DNA from: Xylanimonas cellulosilytica DSM 15894
GTDB lineage: Bacteria; Actinomycetota; Actinomycetes; Actinomycetales; Cellulomonadaceae
Assembly (NCBI RefSeq): GCF_000024965.1
Contig: NC_013530.1
Location: 1,178,001 to 1,242,000 of the forward strand
Length of the DNA stretch: 64,000 nt
Direction: 5' to 3'
The notes below the pieces were generated by a model. It searched no databases. It saw only the letters and a program-made list of their open reading frames with translations, and was not told where the DNA came from. The first letter of the stretch is position 1. Every line of letters starts with the position of its first letter. The position numbers were made by a program, and so were the translations under genes. Shown here piece after piece: positions 14,377 through 40,164 of the stretch.

Positions 14377-15573
14377 GTGCCCGAGGGTCACACCGTCCAT
14401 CGCCTCGCGCGGACGTTCGCCGAGCTGTTCGGCGGGCAGGCGCTCGCCGTGACCAGCCCTCAGGGGCGGTTCGCGGCGGGCGCCGCGCTCGTGTCCGGCC
14501 GCGTCCTCGTGGCGAGCGAGGCCTGGGGCAAGCAGCTCTTCCTGGGCTTCGCCGCCGCGAGCCCTCCGGTGGTTGAGCCGCCCCCGGTGGTTGAGCCGCC
14601 CTCGGTGGTTGAGCCGCCCCCGGTGGTTGAGCCTGTCGAAACCACCCCGCGCCGGAACGTGGTTTCGACAGGCTCAACCACCGGAGGGGTTTCGACAGGC
14701 TCCACCACCGATACCGCCGACGTGCTCTGGCTCCGCGTCCACCTGGGCCTCTACGGTGCCTGGACCTTCACGACGGACGGCACGTCGACGGCCGCGCACG
14801 CGATCGGCGCCCCGCGCAGGCGCGTCGGCGAGACCGAGACCACCCCCGCCGACCTGTCAGACCCACGCAGGTCCCCGGGCTTGCCAGGGTCTGACAACAG
14901 TGTGGGCGAGTGGGTGGTGCCGCCGCCGCGTGGGGCCGTGCGGGCGCGCCTGCTCGGCGCCCACGCCGTCGCCGACCTCACCGGCCCCACGGCGTGCGAG
15001 GTGATCACCCCCGCCGACAAGGTCGCGGTCGAGCAGCGGCTCGGCCCCGACCCCATCCGGCCCGACGGCGGTCACGGCTCGCTGGCGAAGGCGCGCGACG
15101 TGTTCGTCACCCGGGTGTGCCGCTCGCGCGTCACCGTCGGCCAGCAGCTCATGGAACAGTCTGTCGTCGCAGGCGTAGGGAACATCTTCCGGGCGGAGGC
15201 GCTGTTCCGCGCCGGGCTGGACCCCCTGCGGCCGGGCCGCGACGTCGACCCCGCCGTGCTCGGCGCCATCTGGGACGACCTGGTCGACCTCATGCACGAC
15301 GGCGTCCGGCGCGGCGCGATCGTCACCACCCGGCCGGCCGACCGCGGCCACGACGCGCCCGGCATCCGCGCCGCCGGTGGCGCGGCCGCCCTGGGCGCCA
15401 CCACCCGCAGGCACGAGCGCCGCGCCCCGGTGCCGCCCGGCGCCGTCCCGCGCGAGGAGTCGTTCTACGTCTACCAGCGCGACGGTCTTCCCTGCCGCCT
15501 CTGCGGTGCCCCGGTGCTGGTCAAGGACCTCGCCGGGCGGGCGCTGTACTGGTGCCCCGTCTGCCAGTCCTGA
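14377..15573 (+). CDS. nei: Fpg/Nei family DNA glycosylase with two repeat-derived insertions
   Basis: A 398-residue formamidopyrimidine/endonuclease VIII-type glycosylase-lyase that removes oxidised bases. After Met removal the catalytic N-terminus is [10 protein letters not shown] (Pro2, Glu3). The conserved Lys is in [11 protein letters not shown] (about 52), the H2TH region reads [19 protein letters not shown], and the C-terminal zinc finger has CRLCG...CPVC. The family is usually 260-310 residues. The excess comes from an in-frame stretch at about 63-112 ([18 protein letters not shown]) translated from family A repeats, and from a second at about 160-175 from a family C palindrome. The first falls between the conserved Lys loop and the VHLGLYG strand. 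The frame remains open, so the protein may still work, but this is unproven. GTG start. Confidence 0.9.
14566..14710. repeat. family A repeat cluster inside nei coding sequence
   Basis: Three truncated forward units (CCGGTGGTTGAGCCG type), one full forward unit and two inverted units, read through without a stop. Forward units are translated as VVEP(VETT) and inverted units as VVSTGSTT. The arrangement matches the intergenic clusters at 751-875 and 7454-7632. Confidence 0.92.
14855..14896. repeat. family C palindrome inside nei coding sequence
   Basis: Perfect 10-bp inverted ends, TGTCAGACCC at 14855-14864 and GGGTCTGACA at 14887-14896, enclosing a GC-rich centre that contains GGGCTTGCCA. 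The total is 42 bp. It shares the TGTCAGA/TCTGAC ends and a GCTTGCCA tract with the hairpin after tig (27443-27484). Confidence 0.75.
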
Positions 15574-40061: not shown

Positions 40062-40124
40062 GCCGGATGCCGGATGCCGGATGCCGGATGCCGGATGCCG
40101 GATGCCGGATGCCGGATGCCGGAC
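40062..40124. repeat. 7-bp tandem repeat (GCCGGAT)n
   Basis: Eight perfect copies of GCCGGAT from 40062 to 40117 and one with a final C (40118-40124). It starts 5 bp after a stop codon, so it does not change a reading frame, but copy number should be prone to slippage. Confidence 0.95.
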
Positions 40125-40164
40125 GCCGCGGTGCACCCGGCTCGCCCCCCTGGGCGTCTCCGAG

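Follow-up and report, generated by a model that had tools for sequence, protein, structure and literature searches.

A predicted Nei2-type DNA glycosylase of Xylanimonas cellulosilytica with two palindromic repeat families in frame in its variable loops

The nei gene and its two repeat inserts

The window analysed here, a stretch of 64,000 nucleotides of the Xylanimonas cellulosilytica DSM 15894 genome, contains an open reading frame at 14377-15573 (+ strand) of 398 codons, with a GTG start and zero internal stops. It encodes a predicted Nei2-type endonuclease VIII (nei, 398 aa) with orthologues in five congeners. In an alignment of the nei protein with 50 of 80 fetched relatives, the catalytic pair Pro2-Glu3 (14380-14385, + strand), Lys52 (14530-14532, + strand), Asn269, Arg388 and four zinc cysteines are invariant across the 51 sequences. 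The H2TH domain, residues 237-317 (15085-15327, + strand), matches PF06831 above the cut-off (E 4.8e-17), and the four-cysteine zinc finger of C373, C376, C393 and C396 (15493-15564, + strand) scores 19.6 bits against PF06827, whose cut-off of 21.3 is not reached. The sequence-only reading of this locus had stated that the catalytic Pro2/Glu3, the lysine, the H2TH domain and the zinc finger remain, and this is borne out by the alignment and the domain match. According to the parts of PMC11323726 drawn on here, the AP lyase activity of M. smegmatis Nei2 requires Pro2 and Lys51, and its 5-hydroxyuracil glycosylase activity requires Glu3 and Lys51; Lys52 of nei is taken as the equivalent of Lys51, short of a residue-by-residue alignment of the two proteins. 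On the same partial text, M. smegmatis Nei2 shares with nei the Pro2, Glu3, catalytic lysine, four-cysteine zinc finger and enzyme type, whereas at 252 aa it is too short to accommodate the two long loops of nei, lengths rather than aligned residues being compared (PMC11323726).

The scores against family models are low. Against the N-terminal domain model PF01149, nei reaches 20.0 bits (cut-off 25.5), and the NCBIfam models for Nei2 (NF040775, 70.2 against a cut-off of 400) and Fpg (NF002211, 75.4 against 212) are both missed by far. The PF01149 cut-off is also missed by three of the five repeat-free congener orthologues, and the two that pass are those with the shortest loops, so loop length explains the miss of nei at least in part. 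This has implications for annotation, as such long loops can drop a gene below family cut-offs. Among solved Fpg/Nei relatives, which match nei at E values of 1.3e-15 and weaker, the chain 8tjg_A, which we take to be M. smegmatis Nei2, matches at 1.1e-7. With Pro2-Glu3, the catalytic lysine, the H2TH domain and all four zinc cysteines present, nei is filed as Nei2-type from its residues and orthology and not from a model score, and its activity is a predicted one.

Copies of a first repeat, family A, occupy 14568-14709 (residues 64-111) in frame. Half units of family A are repeated in tandem with an 18-bp period at 14561-14633 (+ strand), an array read as VVEPPP; the half unit GGTGGTTGAGCC starts at 14568, 14586 and 14604, and the last repeat merges into a full family A unit in the 'reverse' orientation (14622-14646, - strand), read as VVEPVETT. 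This unit forms an inverted pair with a unit in the 'forward' orientation at 14659-14682 (+ strand), read as VVSTGSTT. A second forward unit follows at 14686-14709 (+ strand), with one mismatch within the 20-bp core, and is read as VSTGSTT. The second repeat, family C, is a 42-bp palindrome at 14855-14896 (+ strand; residues 160-174, in frame) with 20-nt arms that are 80% complementary. Together the two repeats make up about 62 residues, and the claim that two repeat families lie in frame inside the 398 codons of nei is confirmed.

As RNA, the family A stretch folds at -110 kcal/mol (z -10.9) and the family C palindrome at -28.8 kcal/mol (z -5.1). Hairpins as stable as these might suggest that the inserts act through the mRNA, by pausing or processing, and that the change in the protein is a by-product. 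However, any inverted repeat folds in this way wherever it is placed, and the single reading phase described below would be left unexplained; we consider such a regulatory role very unlikely. Elsewhere in the window, the 7-mer GCCGGAT is repeated 9.6 times in tandem at 40062-40128.

Loop variability and selection on nei

The excess length of nei had been judged against 260-310 codons for the family. That range is not the right standard of comparison: the repeats are absent from the five congener orthologues, which have 328-355 aa, and the 80 relatives range from 259 to 404 aa. Over its congeners, nei has a net excess of 43-70 residues, and at both insert sites the loops of the congeners vary in length as well as in sequence. 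Across the 80 loci, which are named records with a few near-duplicates among them, the segment equivalent to residues 57-117 measures 5-62 residues (61 in X. cellulosilytica) and the segment equivalent to residues 153-183 measures 6-60 residues (31 in X. cellulosilytica). These wide ranges indicate that both sites are hypervariable loops, and it is likely that the repeats mostly enlarged loops that were already variable in length. The possibility raised in the sequence-only reading, that relatives have the same loops with unrelated DNA, thus holds in part: across the 80 loci the sequence at both sites is unrelated, and the loops are not the same in length. Because the loop lengths of relatives differ, the edges of the nei inserts are not clean in the alignment, and visual inspection of the nei and fpg alignments revealed no evident target-site duplication. 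In both nei and Fpg, the loop that carries family A connects two successive strands, the first of which starts at the catalytic lysine, and lies about seven residues from that lysine; this distance suggests that the loop may lie at the end of the hairpin far from the DNA.

Two of the fetched records deserve mention in their own right. The nei loci L054 and L055 (NZ_AP027729.1) have identical loops and lie near both ends of one complete chromosome, which is perhaps an untrimmed overlap. In a record named Sphaerisporangium cinnabarinum (L044, QAPD01000065.1), loop 1 of Nei2 is identical, and loop 2 nearly identical, to the corresponding loop of the Cellulosimicrobium funkei record L040; L044 may be mislabelled.

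Outside the loops, selection on nei appears to be ordinary. The dN/dS of the nei core against genome G003 is 0.19, and the median of 141 gene pairs is 0.21; by part, the values are 0.11 (N-terminal), 0.36 (middle, on 36 codons only) and 0.18 (C-terminal). These ratios average both lineages, and a very recent loss of function would escape them. There are 6 changes unique to nei in 287 core columns, and each of the five congeners has 2-11. At position 271, nei has Phe in place of the Tyr that is shared by the five congeners and nearly invariant across the 51 sequences.

These values bear on the proposal that nei might be a gene on its way to decay, that is, a pseudogene in the making whose frame has so far simply survived the inserts. 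Such a state would accord with two independent inserts in one gene, with the Phe271 replacement, and with the coding-strand hairpin of the family A stretch, whose -110 kcal/mol could hamper expression. On the other hand, dN/dS is 0.19, unique changes are not in excess, the catalytic and zinc residues are kept, and 28 of the 30 host genes, including FtsY and SMC, wholly obey the phase rule set out below. On the strength of dN/dS, the count of unique changes and the catalytic residues, decay was rejected as the main reading, and we hold it to be highly improbable. The other half of the same proposal, domain tolerance, is supported, and we infer that the protein tolerates the inserts.

Family A in the genome and its phase within genes

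The family A unit, GGTGGTTTCGACAGGCTCAACCACC, is 25 bp long and is clustered as direct and inverted copies. In the X. cellulosilytica genome (3,831,380 bases in two contigs, the larger of 3,742,776), its exact 20-bp core has 420 copies, 210 per strand, and the reversed control pattern of the 20-mer gave 0 matches in the same genome. Ten congeners, four of them with genomes just 65-79% complete, have 90, 63, 14, 12, 1, 1, 0, 0, 0 and 0 exact cores, and the core is present in 4 of 297 genomes drawn evenly across the order, X. cellulosilytica included. Family A shares several traits with REP/BIME elements: it is a short (20-40 bp) imperfect palindrome in high copy number, clustered and with inverted pairs, and it is extragenic, with convergent and tandem spacers preferred over divergent ones. 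In the 720-kb block introduced below, 17 of the 62 clusters lie in convergent spacers (9.3 kb), 25 in tandem spacers (39.0 kb), 4 in divergent spacers (20.2 kb) and 16 in genes, where the kb totals count spacers of 50 bp or more. Neither a GTAG nor a CGTC tag was seen by eye at the palindrome end in a consensus of 172 copies, whose flanks are G-rich, and no RAYT (Y1_Tnp) transposase was found in the 11 genomes of the genus, the positive controls being matched in 5 of 14. Family A is most likely a REP-like repeat that multiplied in this Xylanimonas lineage. An 18-base stretch of it and the peptide VVEPVETT had no match within the full texts searched.

The half-site of family C has 42 matches in X. 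cellulosilytica, with 0 control matches, and occurs once each in two of the ten congeners. Used as a DNA query, the nei palindrome has 12 matches at E<=0.01, one of them to itself, and a search with exact 10-bp arms finds the nei copy alone, which indicates a degenerate family. Palindromes resembling family C with up to 4 mismatches number 13 in the 720-kb block versus 1 in 800 kb of G003. Two of the 13 are in genes, one in nei and the other in a gene that is presumably PIG-L-like, and both start at the same codon position.

Clusters of family A were mapped in a 720-kb block of X. cellulosilytica, compared with the largely syntenic sequence of G003; in 20 further stretches (208 kb) of the same genome, which cover all but one off-block place among the matches listed; and in 40 stretches (277 kb) around family A copies of the congener G010, with the final part of its copy list excluded. 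Gene calls came from a simple codon-score script, whose start calls are possibly wrong for clusters at gene ends. The 720-kb count supersedes an earlier one over 400 kb, which gave 38 clusters under a looser definition. The block, the further stretches and G010 yielded 62, 40 and 53 clusters, respectively. Of these, 11, 13 and 9 lie inside genes, with a coding score on both sides, 5, 3 and 7 at gene ends, and 46, 24 and 37 between genes. Coding DNA makes up 90% of the block, and cluster density there is 0.025 per kb in genes versus 0.65 per kb between them. The 33 internal clusters fall in 30 genes of the two species, and 29 of these genes have a Pfam domain above the cut-off. The X. cellulosilytica share is 24 clusters in 21 genes of the sampled part of the genome; nei, put forward as a natural example, therefore stands as one of tolerance but is not a singular case.

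The copies within genes sit in poorly conserved stretches, as judged by alignment with orthologues. Fifteen genes were tried, of which 9 were measurable and 6 gave no value (terminal site or split orthologue); in 8 of the 9, the unaligned stretch of the G003 orthologue at the insert site is matched in length by at most 4% of random positions. The family A sites may also chart which loops of housekeeping proteins tolerate insertions.

The reading phase of the internal copies is nearly uniform. Five of the six frames of the family A unit are open, and the sixth has a stop. In 31 of the 33 internal clusters, all copies are in phase 0, which is read as VVEPVETT in one orientation and VVSTGSTT in the other; by copy, 74 of 79 are in phase 0, and the 5 exceptions lie in two genes. 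Reverse copies are in phase 0 in all 30 clusters having them, with another phase open to them (binomial 1.9e-9), and forward copies in 19 of 21 (binomial 8e-8). The rule is followed by 9 of 9 internal clusters in G010, and 13 of 15 gene-end clusters are wholly in phase 0, the other two being in G010. It is not absolute: two internal clusters, one in a NudC-like gene and one in an aminotransferase gene, are partly or wholly in another phase. For 9 of the 11 block genes, the frame was fixed independently by aligning both flanks to the G003 orthologue; of the other two, one is without a G003 match and one has a split orthologue.

The spacing of the copies provides a built-in control. Inside genes, 45 of 46 neighbouring pairs are spaced by a multiple of three bases, versus 64 of 185 between genes (Fisher 1.5e-16), the latter being near random. 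Inverted pairs were also tested alone, since tandem duplication of one unit cannot produce them, and 17 of 18 are in phase inside genes versus 26 of 68 between (2.5e-5). A single phase could also arise if mobility machinery delivered the repeat to loop-coding DNA in a fixed phase, so that little selection was needed, and the repeat does recur at homologous loops. However, the near-random phase of intergenic neighbours implies an element without a built-in three-base register, and one block cluster separates gene parts that lie in different frames; targeting of this kind seems scarcely credible. The cluster concerned (L122, G000:C1:1147621-1147682) is one of 51 in the block not classed as internal, and the G003 orthologue of the gene that it splits is whole (365 aa).

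Selection on the encoded protein would be the simplest cause of the single phase. Based on the comparisons presented above, it is very probable that nei encodes a working Nei2-type glycosylase/AP lyase, that its variable loops have been colonised by two palindromic repeat families, and that selection keeps the tolerated copies. Family A, as a REP-like repeat, would spread, with copies landing or expanding regardless of frame, and selection at the protein level would purge any copy that causes a frameshift, brings in a stop codon or places a Trp/Phe-rich peptide within the fold. The copies retained would be those in tolerant loops, in the phase that is read as a polar Pro/Thr/Ser/Glu-rich linker in both orientations. 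The family A inserts would be translated, and the repeat would be, or have been, mobile.

Shared sites, host genes and comparable systems

MutM/Fpg of X. cellulosilytica (L001, G000:C1:2457100-2460555) bears a family A insert in the homologue of the nei loop 1 hairpin, and Fpg of G010 (L028/L250) has its own insert at the same hairpin. Family A is absent from this hairpin in G001, G002, G004, G005 and G006; G003, with no Fpg match, was left out of the comparison. The site measures about 4 residues in G002, G005 and G006 and is a somewhat longer loop in G001 and G004. Similarly, VVEPVETT is found in the same linker of a DUF3418 helicase, named HrpA-like here for convenience, in X. cellulosilytica and G010, and another site of this helicase has about 57 residues in X. 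cellulosilytica versus 4 in G010. At these two sites the longer loops look like gains by insertion, and the units match genome-wide copies and occur in both orientations. All this argues against growth in place, by which long low-complexity loops would have existed beforehand and the repeats would be local expansions or gene-conversion patches. Growth in place would suit the variable loop lengths of relatives at both nei sites and the G003 orthologues of several genes, which have a loop of similar length and no repeats; on balance we regard it as unlikely.

Colonisation of loops by a dispersed repeat, the preferred reading, has other hosts besides the two glycosylases. The family A peptide is in frame in the hinge of SMC (G000:C1:1253130-1256741, L128) and in the N-terminal linker of FtsY (G000:C1:1257174-1258340, L128), and further X. 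cellulosilytica hosts are UvrD-type helicases, NudC, ABC-F and glycosidases. In G003, a UvrD-like helicase (L200, G003:C1 ~1959814-1962413) has an apparent frame change, either real or a sequencing error, near the loop that bears the X. cellulosilytica insert.

Genome-maintenance genes account for 9 of the 30 hosts versus 4 of 50 genes drawn at random, with weighting by length, from the X. cellulosilytica block (Fisher p 0.014; 0.026 without nei). They are Nei2, UvrD, UvrD-PDDEXK, SMC, an RNaseH/AAA helicase and an MrfA-like helicase in X. cellulosilytica and LigD, Fpg and Mfd in G010; those of the random set are UvrD-HRDC, SMC, an RNase_T exonuclease and a ResIII/DEAD helicase. The enrichment is suggestive, the test being a weak one in which genes were classed by Pfam names after the fact and the background, from one genome, includes the hosts SMC, ABC-F and GH3. 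It is in line with what the part of Di Nocera et al. 2013 (PMC3733652) used here reports for other REPs, whose intragenic copies are often in DNA repair genes. A bolder interpretation is that the palindrome evolved a protein-compatible phase on both strands and became a dispersed source of loops, which repeatedly entered hairpins of genome-maintenance enzymes in related species (Nei2, MutM/Fpg, UvrD-type helicases and SMC in X. cellulosilytica; Fpg, LigD and Mfd in G010) and may tune their activity; this we find unlikely.

Frame-keeping insertion of palindromes into genes is best known from Rickettsia, an obligate intracellular bacterium, and its description is reportedly due to Ogata et al. 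(2000, 2002). In the portions of PMC10969869 and PMC3767692 consulted, the Rickettsia palindromic elements (RPEs) are in-frame palindromes of about 100-150 bp in many unrelated genes, each with a conserved peptide; they are described from Rickettsia and Wolbachia, and some inserts were mapped on structure models. Family A likewise enters unrelated genes in frame with a conserved peptide (33 internal clusters, 30 genes). Compared with RPEs as described, however, it is a 25-bp unit, clustered, actinobacterial and read in one phase in both orientations; because of the 25-bp unit, it is not filed as an RPE. The GTAG- and CGTC-tagged REPs are described, in the portion of Di Nocera et al. 2013 at hand (PMC3733652), as small palindromes found chiefly in the spacers of convergent or tandem genes; some lie entirely within open reading frames, and many of these are in DNA repair genes. 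That portion has no mention of actinobacteria, Xylanimonas, Streptomyces or Micrococcus. Unlike these REPs, family A ends in neither of the tags, and the 11 genomes of the genus yielded no RAYT. Family A works like RPEs and intragenic REPs and is filed under neither. In nematomorph mitochondria, inverted repeats also lie inside genes with protein function preserved, but both arms of those palindromes encode conserved protein regions, according to the text of PMC6649704 drawn on here, whereas nei carries dispersed repeats in loops that are not conserved.

With X. cellulosilytica, frame-keeping insertion of palindromes into genes is frequent in a free-living, culturable actinobacterium whose congeners are nearly free of the repeat, and two paralogous DNA glycosylases bear the repeat in parallel at homologous loops. 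Whether such inserts are translated, tolerated or used is therefore testable in an organism that can be grown. As a last observation, one protein (L119, G000:C1:1076147-1077541) contains a five-fold family A tandem together with a long PDDAR repeat, and the PDDAR repeat was not seen in the G003 orthologue.
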